In this document: in pieces, positions 10,876 to 27,572 of the stretch
Layout of the letters: every line of letters begins with the position of its first letter
Numbering within the stretch: the stretch's first letter is position 1
Position numbers and translations under genes: made by a program
DNA from: Bacteroidetes bacterium GWF2_35_48
Lineage (GTDB): Bacteria; Bacteroidota; Bacteroidia; Bacteroidales; GWF2-35-48
Assembly (NCBI GenBank): GCA_001769125.1
Contig: MEOG01000054.1
Span: 1-37,668 of the forward strand
Direction: 5' to 3'
DNA: 37,668 nt
Notes under the pieces: generated by a model
What the model saw: only the letters and a program-made list of their open reading frames with translations
Database searches by the model: none
What the model was told of the DNA's origin: nothing

Positions 10876-10912
10876 TACTGTAAAATCGTTCCATGGAACG
10901 ATTCTACAGTAC
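10875..10912. terminator. Palindrome at the nusB convergent junction (31-nt core shared with 27535)
   Basis: An almost perfect inverted repeat centred on TTCCATGGAA; the outer bases GTACT pair with AGTAC and there is one A/C mismatch. It starts on the last base of the nusB stop codon and ends 7 nt before the stop of the opposing gene. There is no T-tract, so it is a likely but not classical bidirectional terminator or barrier. The 31-nt core at 10879-10909 recurs identically at 27535-27565. Confidence 0.6.
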
Positions 10913-15044: not shown

Positions 15045-15421
<377 letters not shown>

Positions 15422-15558
15422 TGAAGATTTGAAGATGATATGATTTGAAGATTTGAAGATGATATGATTTGAAAATTTGAAGATGATATGATTTGAAGAT
15501 GTGAAGATTTGAAGATTTGAAGATGATATGATTTGAAGATTTGAAGATGTATTAATTT
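15422..15558. repeat. Degenerate ATTTGAAG / ATGATATG tandem repeat
   Basis: A run of ATTTGAAG units mixed with GATGATATG, with small variants (TGTGAAG, GAAAATTTG). It directly joins the GATT tract to the heptamer satellite, so three different short repeats form one block of about 800 bp. Confidence 0.9.
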
Positions 15559-15560
15559 GA

Positions 15561-16186
15561 TGACTGCTGACTGATGACTGATGACTGTTGACTGATGACT
15601 GATGACTGATGACTGATGACTGATGACTGCTGACTGATGACTGATGACTGATGACTGCTGACTGCTGACTGCTGACTGATGACTGCTTCAACTGCTGACT
15701 GCTGACTGCTGACTGCTGACTGCTGACTGCTGACTGATGACTGCTGACTGCTGACTGATGACTGTTGACTGCTGACTGATGACTGCTGACTGCTGACTGA
15801 TGACTGATGACTGATGACTGATGACTGCTGACTGATGACTGATGACTGATGACTGCTGACTGATGACTGCTGACTGCTGACTGCTTCAACTGCTGACTGC
15901 TGACTGCTGACTGCTGACTGATGACTGATGACTGATGACTGCTGACTGCTGACTGATGACTGTTGACTGCTGACTGCTGACTGCTGACTGCTGACTGCTG
16001 ACTGCTGACTGATGACTGATGACTGATGACTGTTGACTATTGACTGCTGACTGCTGACTGCTGACTGATGACTGATGACTGATGACTGATGACTGATGAC
16101 TGTTGACTGTTGACTGTTGACTGTTGACTGTTGACTGTTGACTGTTGACTGTTGACTGTTGACTGTTGACTGTTGACTGTTGACTG
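15561..16186. repeat. TGACTGN heptamer satellite, about 626 bp
   Basis: An array of roughly ninety 7-nt units TGACTGC, TGACTGA and TGACTGT in varying order, ending in a pure run of TGACTGT units (about 16100-16180). Two interruptions read GACTGCTTCAACTGC (near 15681 and 15879). The 7-nt period keeps a minus-strand frame open as a repeating SAVSSHQ pattern, but it is not a gene by appearance. It ends about 80 bp before mutS2. Confidence 0.95.
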
Positions 16187-20732: not shown

Positions 20733-20783
20733 AACCGTAGGTTGAGCTGCCTGTGGCGCTTTGCGACATCGAAACCCACGGTT
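20733..20783. repeat. Hairpin with split TGAGC...TCGAA core
   Basis: AACCGTAGG (20733-20741) pairs with CCCACGGTT (20775-20783) with one mismatch. Between them are TTGAGC and ATCGAAA, the two halves of the core found intact at 20791, 24021, 24091 and 24122, separated by an insert of about 20 nt. Confidence 0.6.
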
Positions 20784-20790
20784 TACCCTC

Positions 20791-20812
20791 TGACTGAGCG
20801 GAGTCGAAGTCA
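20791..20812. repeat. TGAGCGGAGTCGAA hairpin element, copy A
   Basis: Core TGAGCGGAGTCGAA flanked by TGAC on the left and GTCA on the right, which pair. It lies between the SDR gene and the barrel-like protein gene. Confidence 0.75.
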
Positions 20813-20831
20813 GCGAAGTCAAAACCCACAA

Positions 20832-21707
20832 TTAAACTTTAAAAAAGCTCATTTTTTCTTCCATTATCTGCGACAAGCCGCATAAATTATCGCTCATACC
20901 CCATAGCAACTCCCGGTCTTTTTTATTAAAACAACAATTCTGTGCACGAATTTCTTTTTTCTTTGAAAAATACTTACCGTTTACATTGGTAATTTGTTCA
21001 GATATAGCAAGCCATATTCCTGTTTCAGCAGCTTTTTCAGGAGTTCTCATGAAAGGTCTGAAAAAAGAAAACACAAAACCAACAAAACCTTTAAGTTCTT
21101 TCGCGAATCCAGTACTTACAATACCGGGGTGATAACAATTTACAGTAACATTTGTTCCCTGTAATTTTTCAGCAAGCTCGAATGTGAACATAATATTTGC
21201 CAGCTTAGACTGGCTGTATGCTTTCATAGGAGTATACCCCTCATGAAAATTCAAATCATCAAAATTAATTTTCCCAATCCTTTGCGCTTCTGATGCAACA
21301 TTTACTATACGAGCAGAACGAGCTGCTTTTAAATTGTCGAGTAATAATCCGGTAAGTAAAAAATACGCAATATAATTTGTAGCAAAAGTTTTTTCCAAAC
21401 CATCAGGAGTCATCTCAAATTTTTGAAATATAGCTCCGGCATTATTTACCAATACATCAATTACAGGATAATCTCCTGATATTTCTTCTGCCAGCCGTAT
21501 TATGTCTTGCTGTATAGATAAATCTCCAACATATAAACGCACATTCGGATTTTCAGTATCTTCAATAATGTTGAGCCGTATCATCTCACCTTTATCTCTG
21601 TTTCTGCAAACCATAATAACGCTTGCGCCCAAAGAAGCAAGTGTTACGGCTGTTGCTTTCCCAATGCCCGATGTTGCACCGGTTATTACACAAATCTTTC
21701 CCTGCAT
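20832..21707 (-). CDS. Short-chain dehydrogenase/reductase (retinol dehydrogenase-like)
   Basis: 291 residues with a complete classical SDR set: cofactor motif TGATSGIG (9-16), CRNRDKGE after the second beta strand (suggesting NADP preference through the Arg residues), NNAG (88-91), catalytic Ser-139, and YSQSK with Tyr-164 and Lys-168, followed by CYHPGIVSTG. The overall pattern is that of the retinol dehydrogenase/WW-oxidoreductase-like group; the natural substrate is unknown. The C-terminal 60 residues contain IRAQNCCFNKKDRELLW, typical of this subgroup. It may head the minus-strand unit with the two exported proteins, but repeats lie in the 148-bp gap. Confidence 0.92.
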   Translation of the reverse strand: MQGKICVITGATSGIGKATAVTLASLGASVIMVCRNRDKGEMIRLNIIEDTENPNVRLYVGDLSIQQDIIRLAEEISGDYPVIDVLVNNAGAIFQKFEMTPDGLEKTFATNYIAYFLLTGLLLDNLKAARSARIVNVASEAQRIGKINFDDLNFHEGYTPMKAYSQSKLANIMFTFELAEKLQGTNVTVNCYHPGIVSTGFAKELKGFVGFVFSFFRPFMRTPEKAAETGIWLAISEQITNVNGKYFSKKKEIRAQNCCFNKKDRELLWGMSDNLCGLSQIMEEKMSFFKV

Positions 21708-21722
21708 ATTTTAAATTTTCGG

Positions 21723-21730
21723 CAAATATA
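21723..21730 (-). promoter_or_regulatory. Possible -7 promoter box of the SDR gene
   Basis: TATATTTG on the minus strand, a full TAnnTTTG match ending 15 nt upstream of the ATG at 21707. No clear TTG lies at the -33 distance. Confidence 0.4.
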
Positions 21731-21829
21731 TAAAAATGAATATTGAACATCTCACGTTTCATAGAATATTGCATAAAAAATTGCACAAATCATTTAATGT
21801 ATATATTTTTACCTTATAATAAATAACCA

Positions 21830-23965
21830 ATGCGCGTTCAAACAAAAATATTATTGCTGATCATTCTCGTTTTCCTGATATTTATTATTTTCCTTTTAGG
21901 TTTTCTCTATTTAAGGAACGAACAAAATAATGCTATTGCCGAAGAAAGGAAAGAAAGACAGAAAACAAATATCAAAACAGTAATCAATCTTCATACAAAA
22001 AGTATGGCTGAAACTGTAAGTGATTATGCAGTATGGGATGAAATGGTTCGATTTGTAAATAAACCTGATGATCTTTGGGCGCAAGATAATTTATTGTATA
22101 CATTAAAATTTTATCATATTGATGCGATATGGGTTTACAACGAAAAATACGAACTAGTTTATCATGTAAACCAGATAGTGGGGTTCAGAAATAAAACCGT
22201 ACCTGTTCCTATAGAAGCTTTGAAAAAAATACAGAAACAAAGAACATTCATTTATCACAGTTCTCTGCATCCGTCAAATATTCAGATTTGCGGTTCATCC
22301 ATTCATCCAATTAAAGATATTAACCGGTTGACAGAACCAAAGGGCTTTCTGCTTATGGGAAAACTTTGGAATAATACGTATATAGATGAATTATCAAAAC
22401 TAACAGGTACCCGGATTTTCTTTAAAGATACCCGAAAAAATAAATTATCACATTTGAAAACTGATTTTGTGAATATCTATCCCTTGCACGATTACAAAGG
22501 AAATAAAATTACGGATGTCGTTTTTATTAAGGATAATCCCTTTCTTAGCATTCTGCAAAAAGAATCCTTTACATTTATAATTTTCTTTTTAATTCTTGCA
22601 GTAATTATGCTGAGTCTTTTTGTTCTGACTTTTCATAAAATGGTAAGCATCCCATTGGGAAAAATATCTAAAAGCCTTACAAAAAGTGATATCAGCCTGC
22701 TTACATTAAAAAATAAAAAAGATGAATTCGGACAAATTTCAGGATTAATAAAAAAATTCTATGAACAAAAAGAAATTCTTGAAGAACAAATACAAGAGAA
22801 TATTCTGAAAACAAAACTTATTGAAGAAAGCGCACGGACTTTTAAAAATTTCATAGAACAATCCTCAGACGGAATTCTGATTTTTGATCAGTCAGGATTA
22901 CTGATTCAATATAATTCTGCAATACTAAAATATCTTGAAAAGGATTCTAATTCTATCGCTGAAATAAAGATGTGGGATTTGCATAACAAAATGATTCATG
23001 AAAAGCTGAATACAAAAATAATGGATCAGAATTATCTGGAAAAAATACAAAATGCCCTAAAGAATAAAGAAGCAGATTTCTTTAATTTCCGAAATGAAAT
23101 TTATATTGAAATCCCCCCGGATAAGAGGCTTTTTGCAACTCAAACCATTTTCCCAATTGTTACAGAAGATCAATTTTTGGTAGGAATGATAATCAGGGAT
23201 ATTACCAAATTAAAAGAAGCAGAAAATGAAATTATTCGAGCCCTTTCCAAAGAAAAAGAATTGCATGAATTAAAGACTCAGTTTGTATCTACGGTTTCCC
23301 ATGAATTCAGAACTCCCATGACTATTATCTATTCCAATCTCCAATTAATGGAAAGCATAAAAGATAAAATGAGTCCGGAGGAAATTTCAAAAAGTTATTC
23401 GAGGGTTTATACCGCAATAAAACAAATGACTCAAATACTCGATCAGGTTAATCTGGTAAACAAAGATATGGCAGGAAAACTGATTTACAAACCCTATGCT
23501 GTAAATTTAGAAACCTTCGTTAAGCAACTCGTTGATGAATTATCATCCCTCAGTCAAAAAGTAAAAATAGAACTTGTATTTAAAGAAGAATTCGGAGTGA
23601 TATATTTTGACCCCACTCTTACTCAGTACATCATTATGAATTTGCTTTCAAATGCAATTAAATTTTCATTACAATCAGATACAGTTTTATTCATAATATC
23701 AAAAATAAACCAATCTATACATATAGAAATTACAGATCATGGAATTGGAATACCGAAAGAAGATCAGCATCGCCTTTTTGAAGCCTTTTTCAGAGCAAGA
23801 AATGCAGCAAATATAAAAGGAACAGGACTTGGTTTATCCATAGTAAAAAGAAGTGTGGACATTCATAATGGTGCTATTAATTTTGAAAGCGAAGAAGGTG
23901 CAGGTACGAAGGTTACTGTAATTTTACCGTTTGGAGAAAAAAGTGTGGATGAAAAAATAATTTGA
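21830..23965 (+). CDS. Membrane sensor histidine kinase (CHASE4-HAMP-PAS-HisKA-HATPase)
   Basis: 711 residues. TM1 at about 7-26 and TM2 at about 247-269 enclose an extracytoplasmic CHASE4-like sensor with the characteristic AETVSDYAVWDEMVRFV segment (about 62-78). A HAMP linker (about 270-325) and a PAS domain (about 340-465; SSDGILIFDQSGLLIQYNSA) follow. The kinase core has the H box SHEFRTP (about 489-495), the N box YIIMNLLSNAIKFS (about 600-613), DHGIGIP and GTGLGLSIV. Autophosphorylation on His in the H box and transfer to a separate regulator are expected, since there is no receiver domain. The likely partner is the response regulator at 24475, about 500 bp downstream on the same strand. 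Confidence 0.93.
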   Translation: MRVQTKILLLIILVFLIFIIFLLGFLYLRNEQNNAIAEERKERQKTNIKTVINLHTKSMAETVSDYAVWDEMVRFVNKPDDLWAQDNLLYTLKFYHIDAIWVYNEKYELVYHVNQIVGFRNKTVPVPIEALKKIQKQRTFIYHSSLHPSNIQICGSSIHPIKDINRLTEPKGFLLMGKLWNNTYIDELSKLTGTRIFFKDTRKNKLSHLKTDFVNIYPLHDYKGNKITDVVFIKDNPFLSILQKESFTFIIFFLILAVIMLSLFVLTFHKMVSIPLGKISKSLTKSDISLLTLKNKKDEFGQISGLIKKFYEQKEILEEQIQENILKTKLIEESARTFKNFIEQSSDGILIFDQSGLLIQYNSAILKYLEKDSNSIAEIKMWDLHNKMIHEKLNTKIMDQNYLEKIQNALKNKEADFFNFRNEIYIEIPPDKRLFATQTIFPIVTEDQFLVGMIIRDITKLKEAENEIIRALSKEKELHELKTQFVSTVSHEFRTPMTIIYSNLQLMESIKDKMSPEEISKSYSRVYTAIKQMTQILDQVNLVNKDMAGKLIYKPYAVNLETFVKQLVDELSSLSQKVKIELVFKEEFGVIYFDPTLTQYIIMNLLSNAIKFSLQSDTVLFIISKINQSIHIEITDHGIGIPKEDQHRLFEAFFRARNAANIKGTGLGLSIVKRSVDIHNGAINFESEEGAGTKVTVILPFGEKSVDEKII

Positions 23966-24020
23966 TGATGATTTGATGTGCTGATGTGTTCTGAGTTTAA
24001 AGTTTCAGGTTTAAACTGTA

Positions 24021-24149
24021 GACTGAGCGGAGCCGAAGCCAAAGTTTCAGGTTTCAGCTTTAAAGTTTAAAGTTTCGGGTATCAAGCCGCAGGTTGAGCG
24101 GAGTCGAAACCTGAGTTTAAGCGGTGACTGAGCGGAGTCGAAGACACCG
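24021..24149. repeat. Three TGAGCGGAG(T/C)CGAA hairpin elements, copies B-D
   Basis: Copy B at 24021-24040 (GAC-core-GCC, weak pairing), copy C at 24090-24113 (CAGGT-core-ACCTG, perfect) and copy D at 24122-24149 (CGGTG...CACCG, with AC/GA mismatched next to the core). The same 14-nt core is kept while the paired flanks differ. Between them are AGTTTCAGG/AAAGTTT low-complexity repeats. Confidence 0.75.
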
Positions 24150-24474: not shown

Positions 24475-25455
24475 ATGAAAAAAGTTCTACTGATTGAAGA
24501 TGACAAAGACCTGTGTGAGACGATTTCTCTGTTTCTCGGGAATAATGAATTTATTGTGTATACGGCTTCTGACGGTATTCAGGGAGTGCAGGAGGCGGTA
24601 AAAATAATACCGGATATAATAATTTGTGATATTGCCATGCCAAATCTTGATGGATATGGAGTTTATGAAACGCTTAGAAACATAAACATAACGACTGCAA
24701 TTCCCTTTATTTTTCTTACTGCAAAAACAGAGGTTCGAGATATTAGGGCTGGTATGAATTTAGGAGCAGATGATTATATTACAAAACCGTTTGAGCATAT
24801 TGATTTACTACAGGCTATTCAGATCAGAATTGAAAAACAAAAAAAATTAAATGCTATAACAGAAAAAAAATTCCTGAGTATTCTGGATAATCCAATCAAC
24901 GGCGTTTTTATTTTTCAGAATAAACAACTCATTTATGCAAATAACAAACTGGCTGAAATGCTGAACGAAGACCCGGAACAAATAAAAAATGATTCCCTTG
25001 ATAATTTTATTGTAAATTATATCCATAAAGATAACAGACCGGAACTGATTAAATATTTTCAGAAAGCCTCACTAAATGAAGCTGAATCAACACTCCTACT
25101 GGTAAATATTCTACATAAGAATAAAACGCATAAACTTTACAATCTTTTCTTGAAAACAACAACAATAAACGATAAAGCTTCTGTTATTGGATATGTGGTT
25201 GAAGCTGTTTCCAAAAGCGAAAAAGATGACGATAATAAACTCGCAGAGGTTGATACAGATTTAATTTCCAGCAGAGAAAAAGAAGTGTTGCTTCTTATTT
25301 GTCATGGTATGGTAAATAAAGAAATTGCCGATAAATTGAATATCAGCAAAAGAACTGTAGACAGGCACAGAGACAACCTGATGAAAAAAACCCATTCACG
25401 AAATACGGCTGAATTGCTTATTAATTCGATCAAACTGGGACTTGTAGAATTATAA
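24475..25455 (+). CDS. Response regulator, REC-PAS-LuxR type
   Basis: 326 residues from MKKVLLIEDD. The receiver domain has acidic pair Glu-8/Asp-9, phosphoacceptor Asp-52 (IICDIAMP) and the conserved Lys in DDYITKPF (about 101-108). A PAS-like region follows (about 125-255; DNPINGVFIFQNKQLIYANN). A LuxR-type HTH completes it (about 262-326; SSREKEVLLLICHGMVNKEIADKLNIS as the start of the domain, then KRTVDRHRDNLMKK). It should bind DNA after phosphorylation, most simply by the kinase upstream. An upstream in-frame ATG at 24400 exists, but the added 25 residues are translated MITE-like sequence, so 24475 is preferred. Confidence 0.92.
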   Translation: MKKVLLIEDDKDLCETISLFLGNNEFIVYTASDGIQGVQEAVKIIPDIIICDIAMPNLDGYGVYETLRNINITTAIPFIFLTAKTEVRDIRAGMNLGADDYITKPFEHIDLLQAIQIRIEKQKKLNAITEKKFLSILDNPINGVFIFQNKQLIYANNKLAEMLNEDPEQIKNDSLDNFIVNYIHKDNRPELIKYFQKASLNEAESTLLLVNILHKNKTHKLYNLFLKTTTINDKASVIGYVVEAVSKSEKDDDNKLAEVDTDLISSREKEVLLLICHGMVNKEIADKLNISKRTVDRHRDNLMKKTHSRNTAELLINSIKLGLVEL

Positions 25456-27526: not shown

Positions 27527-27572
27527 TTGGGAATTGTAAAATCGTTCCATGGAACGATTCTACAGTCCCAAT
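27526..27572. terminator. Palindrome at the pagL-like/aspS convergent junction (same 31-nt core)
   Basis: The 31-nt core at 27535-27565, centred on TTCCATGGAA, is identical to 10879-10909. Its flanks differ but still pair: ATTGGGA (27526-27532) with TCCCAAT (27566-27572). It starts on the last base of the pagL-like stop codon and ends 5 nt before the aspS stop, so it probably serves both genes. Confidence 0.62.

Follow-up and report, generated by a model that had tools for sequence, protein, structure and literature searches.

The repeat built on the 14-nt core TGAGCGGAGTCGAA in the genome of Bacteroidetes bacterium GWF2_35_48 (5.98 Mb, 142 contigs) is, in our judgement, probably a non-autonomous mobile element of about 24 nt that inserts at the apices of hairpins, including the loop of its own core. 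The window analysed here is the whole of contig MEOG01000054.1 (37,668 nt; contig C54), which holds four copies of this core. Within this single genome, target palindromes occur both filled and empty, the unit has a fixed size and insertion point, copies are nested within one another, and the stems around the core covary. From these observations we infer that the difference between filled and empty sites arose by insertion in recent history. What had been a vaguely "REP-like" repeat, after the repetitive extragenic palindromic (REP) sequences of bacteria, now has a measured size of 24 nt, a target rule, and natural filled and empty controls in one genome.

Filled and empty palindromes

The insertion sites emerge from a palindrome search that was independent of any core, in which TCGTTCCA was followed by TGGAACGA after a gap of 0-30 nt. 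This search returned 34 places, of which 23 were uninterrupted, nine contained a central unit, and two spanned neighbouring half-sites. The palindrome TCGTTCCATGGAACGA thereby has 32 copies, 23 empty and nine filled exactly at the centre, with inserts of 24 nt in six cases and 23 nt in three, the shorter inserts holding a 13-nt core. Two empty targets, TCGTTCCA^TGGAACGA, lie in the window at 10886-10901 and 27542-27557 (no strand assigned). Among 15 loci of this 16-nt palindrome that were checked, the gaps between flanking open reading frames (ORFs) were convergent in three, including both window copies, co-directional in 11, and divergent in one.

A second palindrome, CCCCGAG/CTCGGGG, gives the same unit size. 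It occurs at 27 places, eight of them filled (all 43 nt) and the others empty with a length of 19 nt (eight) or 20 nt (11); the filled 43 nt minus the empty 19 nt leaves 24 nt. The filled loops TAT, AAT, and TCC each exist empty as well, which suggests independent insertions of one 24-nt unit. The palindrome that forms the outer stem of such copies is also present in the genome without an insert. When the 24-nt unit was deleted in silico, the flanks formed a palindrome of at least 6 bp in 18 of the 157 copies examined from this genome, compared with a maximum of four in 50 shuffles, and the same deletion offset left such a palindrome in none of 196 copies from named loci of other organisms. 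Where such an outer stem has unequal arms, it is the 5' arm that carries the extra bases in 39 copies and the 3' arm in one.

The unit is found within its own core, too. In four of the 157 copies an outer core reappears once exactly 24 nt (7+14+3) are deleted, always at TGAGCGN^AGYCGAA, and other, non-equivalent deletions have this effect in at most two copies, mainly from adjacent copies. This single target holds inserts with varied inner stems (CAG/CTG, CAG/TTG, and TGC/GTA), which indicates that an insert brings its inner stem with it. The initial annotation had suggested that each stem is adapted to its site, possibly by copying flanking DNA; the different inner stems at one target rule this out for nested copies, and the idea is not supported for the well-resolved copies. 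In the named loci of other organisms, the same deletion test found one 24-nt case among 196 copies (L232), at another point of the core. Two further nested loci were read by eye: a Nostoc locus in which two 24-nt units sit within an outer copy (L231), and L198.

A constant tip on covarying stems

Genome-wide, the core is present in 64 exact copies and in 180 copies with at most one mismatch, while the reversed pattern gave none; a sister core, TGAGCGAAGTCGAA, has 66 copies. Our flank analysis covers 149 distinct copies among the matches listed, not all genomic copies. The initial annotation allowed that pairing would be a matter of chance if the flanks were unpaired in most copies. A perfect stem of at least 3 bp abuts the core in 117 of the 149, whereas shuffled partners give 8% on average and never more than 15% (1,000 shuffles). 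At positions 1-3 from the core, pairing reaches 96%, 85%, and 97%, against 51%, 37%, and 38% when the 3' flanks are reassigned, and it stays at 93%, 86%, and 94% when the copies are collapsed to 81 distinct 6+6 flank types. Stem pairing across the genome far exceeds chance, and the description of a conserved 14-nt core in variable but paired stems holds both in the window and in the genome as a whole.

The repeat is mostly intergenic. By mechanical rather than curated ORF calls, 122 of the 149 copies lie between ORFs (94 in co-directional gaps, 20 in convergent, and eight in divergent), 20 overlap an ORF of at least 90 amino acids, and seven have no flanking ORF on one side; the median distance from gene 3' ends is 43 nt. 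High copy number, this intergenic placement, and the covarying stems together bear out the assignment to a REP-like family. In co-directional gaps the core strand is antisense to transcription in 61 cases and sense in 33 (n = 94; p = 0.005, relatedness of copies not corrected), a bias that weighs mildly against a function carried by mRNA. Among the 157 copies, a 5' tag of the form YYTG is present in 26, and 16 have a partner on the opposite strand within 120 nt.

The conserved part of this REP-like hairpin is the tip, not the stem. The core varies chiefly at base 7, which lies within a GNA triplet in 147 of 149 copies (other spacers were only partly admitted by the search pattern). A second tip of 13 nt, with YT in place of GNA, accounts for three of the nine palindrome inserts found by the search that required no core. 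Stem-bearing copies with a 4-nt spacer have the form YTGY in 5/5 cases in this genome and 18/29 in other organisms; the excess of the 5-nt GNA spacer in this census is there by construction, the loci having been fetched by the GNA core. We take the tip to consist of G.A pairs in tandem (TGAG/CGAA) capped by a loop of GNA or YT, a structure that ViennaRNA does not see. GNA and CTTG mini-hairpins are stable. On the core strand, near-pairs are more often G.T than A.C, by 22 to 4 in the 157 copies and by 27 to 10 elsewhere. One subfamily (TGC/GTA) supplies many of the 22, and the 81 distinct flank types give 10 to 4; for these related copies, the excess is a hint that the core strand is the folded strand.

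A longer tip also exists. The initial annotation reported a fifth window copy at 20733-20783 (+ strand) with its core split by an insert. The copy is real, and the split core was the part that needed correction. Its 31-nt core, TGAGC...TCGAA (20743-20773) in an AACCGT/ACGGTT stem, recurs identically as TGAGCTGCCTGTGGCGCTTTGCGACATCGAA in one other of the loci examined, on contig C46 (L116, 944-974), in a different stem, and it is a second tip type rather than simply the 14-nt core with a 24-nt unit inserted. Three further loci (L071, L073, and L074, on contigs C10, C105, and C123) carry a long-core variant in which an inner GCAGAGCAGAGCCGAAGC-like hairpin lies between TTGAGC and ATCGAAACC.

A possible route of spread and its rivals

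In the mechanism we propose, the unit would consist of the 14-nt core as hairpin tip plus 10 nt, usually forming a stem of 3-5 bp and often with a 4-nt 5' tag. Its spread would be by exact insertion at the apex of self-folding structures, with no duplication of the target. Such structures would include palindromic repeats, the loop of its own core, and probably hairpins resembling terminators. One insertion after another would then yield telescoped hairpins in which the outer stems are site-specific and the newest tip is constant. Nested insertion of this kind would explain why many hairpins with unrelated stems share one tip, that is, why the core is constant while the stems are variable but paired. 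The mobile form may be a single strand that has folded up, DNA laid bare at replication being the likeliest source, and an enzyme would act on it in trans. A broader proposal is that one 14-nt tip defines, across many phyla, a 24-nt element that multiplies by apex insertion without a Y1 transposase, through a general cell enzyme acting on folded single strands or through an RNA step; this we put forward tentatively, as a possibility with the balance tilted against it.

Several points weigh against an insertion history. Five filled TCGTTCCA copies have similar outer flanks, so some of the filled sites may derive from the copying of a single composite. The filled and empty targets of this genome are paralogues rather than orthologues, and blastn found no orthologous filled and empty pair among the 118 named bacterial and 120 viral stretches compared. 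In 51 of the 157 copies, a continuous, untagged stem of at least 6 bp from the core hides the border of the unit. The hairpins do not stand out in DNA folding with ViennaRNA (seven stretches, with z between -1.84 and +0.82), and support for them is covariation, not folding energy. No event of movement was observed, nor could any enzyme be linked to the 24-nt element.

The search for an enzyme bears directly on the classical alternative, in which such hairpins are moved by a genome-encoded REP-associated tyrosine transposase (RAYT) of the Y1 (HUH) class, and the initial annotation had suggested looking for a RAYT or similar gene in the genome. HUH chemistry fits a hairpin with a 5' tag, inverted doublets, and the absence of target duplication. 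The genome itself encodes a RAYT-like gene (L038, which scores 64 bits against NF047646, where the cut-off is 80) as well as IS200-type Y1 genes, one of which, on contig C140, is preceded by two cores roughly 590 and 650 nt upstream. No core lies within 1.5 kb of the RAYT-like gene. Across sampled genomes, RAYT-family matches were somewhat commoner where the core is abundant (29/33 genomes with at least 10 copies and 160/214 others), an excess that is not significant (p = 0.12). Against this alternative, neither the GNA nor the YT core occurs within 800 nt of any of 20 RAYT genes, which were taken from 15 genomes that bear the core; a looser TGAGCAC match lies near one of the 20 (L436). The four of the 33 genomes that lack a RAYT-family match, all near-complete and core-rich, also gave no PF01797 (Y1_Tnp) match: G061 with 192 core copies, G251 with 33, and G088 and G060 with 19 each, G061 being a single contig estimated as 100% complete. 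A RAYT link to the core repeat is not supported, and we regard this explanation as improbable. Complete genomes with up to 192 cores and no Y1 match make the search for another enzyme concrete.

Alternatively, a short hairpin RNA might enter the apical loop of another RNA hairpin and then be copied to DNA. The targets are hairpin apices, some of them terminator-like (L122 and L146), the near-pairs on the core strand favor G.T over A.C, and an RNA intermediate has reportedly been proposed for cyanobacterial small dispersed repeats (SDRs). The shrinking of the G.T excess in distinct flank types lowers the odds of an RNA route, and the prevalence of the antisense orientation in co-directional gaps speaks against it, so that we think it unlikely. 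The repeat might also be immobile, its tip being a selected functional element, such as a protein-binding site or an RNA-stability or terminator element, while its stems drift by compensation. Strong covariation around a constant tip, the interchange of GNA and YT tips, and the location of most copies between genes, close to gene 3' ends, all suit this idea, and selection on the fold, which the initial annotation had raised, is compatible with the covariation and the interchangeable tips. Conservation alone, however, gives neither exact 24-nt differences between filled and empty sites, nor nesting in the repeat's own core, nor absence from most relatives, and we consider a purely functional origin quite improbable.

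Distribution, relatives, and the window copies

A scan of named genomes for the 14-mer returned at least 118 stretches. About 1,900 matches to a 14-mer are expected by chance in 257 Gb, and our statements about phyla therefore rest only on stem-bearing copies. Among the first copies per locus, 72/117 (61.5%) have a stem of at least 3 bp, compared with 8.5% when shuffled; the records include Spirochaetales, Ignavibacteria, Woesebacteria, Scalindua, Nostoc, Sphingobium, Omnitrophota, and Ruminococcus. The core was present in 19 of 60 sampled relatives (reversed control in one) and in 82 of the 247 genomes of a phylum sample, 33 of which have at least 10 copies. Because the reversed control also occurred in 15/247, a genome with just one or two copies does not count as evidence. 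The distribution is patchy, from 0 to 192 copies per genome.

Copies in other bacteria often carry 5' tags of the GTCA or CGTT type. In other Bacteroidota, most doublets that were read are inverted, and many are tagged with TGTC or CGTC and have the same core as tip. The tag position is occupied by GTCA, mostly as TGTC+AT, in 24/24 copies from a 400-kb sample of G061, 23/24 of which have a stem of at least 3 bp, and inverted pairs are present in G061, G131, G135, G162, G170, G225, and G265. Sphingobium algorifonticola has an inverted doublet at two junctions within its nuo operon, nuoI-nuoJ and nuoJ-nuoK; in 10/10 other alphaproteobacteria the whole 3.6-kb nuoJ locus is free of the core. On viral contigs of IMG/VR (L288-L407) we counted 157 core copies, 88 with a stem of at least 3 bp, a count made with no shuffled control. 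A composed 30-nt query matched 158 plasmid records; among the matches listed (60), a Pseudomonas TerD-family gene appears in 35 and a like gene in two more.

The repeat is best seen as kin of the CGTC-tagged REPs and the cyanobacterial SDRs. In the 2013 survey, the CGTC superfamily comprises small intergenic palindromes with a CGTC, TGTC, or CCTC tag ahead of a stem that begins with AT, with alternative stems and head-to-head doublets, patchily distributed across several phyla including Bacteroidetes, with one family (in H. neapolitanus) located inside palindromes; the survey reports no adjoining transposase and no known mobiliser (Di Nocera et al. 2013, PMC3733652). The present repeat is likewise small, mostly intergenic, and without a dedicated transposase, as far as Y1 and RAYT genes were tested, and the tags of G061 are a further likeness. 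It differs in that a CGTC or TGTC tag stands at the foot of only 2/157 copies (CCTC not counted), in that head-to-head doublets do not predominate, and in that the unit lies precisely in the middle of repeats that are also found without it. We therefore make no claim that the copies in this genome belong to the CGTC superfamily, given their tags and doublets. A common origin with CGTC REPs is nevertheless likely, given that the core is shared and that other Bacteroidota have tagged copies of it; identity with the four families of PMC3733652 is putative.

The likeness to SDRs is of another kind. The Nostoc repeats described by Elhai and colleagues in 2008 are said to be 21-27 nt long, to share a common fold with compensatory changes, to be nested in themselves, and to occur in heptameric repeats. 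By this definition the present unit is similar, being 24 or 23 nt long and inserted without duplication, also into itself. A palindrome is a target there too: one account has SDR5 enter HIP1 exactly between its third and fourth nucleotides (PMC4390886). The targets here, however, are other palindromes, and the one core spans many phyla. With the REPIN/RAYT system of GTAG-tagged REPs it has in common the inverted doublets of other genomes and a hairpin with a 5' tag, whereas a GTAG ending 3-6 nt before the core was seen in 1/157 copies, and the RAYT and Y1 findings above set it further apart. The exact core strings were not found in open-access article text, figures lying outside that search.

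In the window, all four cores are on the + strand, at 20795-20808, 24024-24037 (with a T to C change), 24095-24108, and 24129-24142. At up to two mismatches there are four matches, compared with a mean of 0.10 in shuffles, and 0/100 shuffles reach four. Three of the four copies have well-paired flanks, as the initial annotation stated, at slightly shifted coordinates. The copies at 20790-20813 (CTGAC/GTCAG, a perfect stem) and 24090-24113 (CAGGT/ACCTG) are each 24 nt long with a 5-bp stem, and the copy at 24122-24149 (CGGTGAC/GACACCG) has a sole A.A mismatch one pair away from the core. The degenerate copy at 24013-24047 pairs poorly in its inner flanks (GAC/GCC) and well in its outer AAACT/AGTTT.

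These cores are intergenic. They adjoin a short-chain dehydrogenase gene (20832-21707, minus strand) and lie between a gene for a CHASE4 histidine kinase (21830-23965) and one for a response regulator (24478-25455). No Rfam family matched the window at gathering scores. Elsewhere in the window, about 89 tandem heptamers of TGACTGC occupy 15561-16186, beside GATTTGAA-type arrays at 15379-15560; heptamer arrays have reportedly been described around cyanobacterial SDRs.

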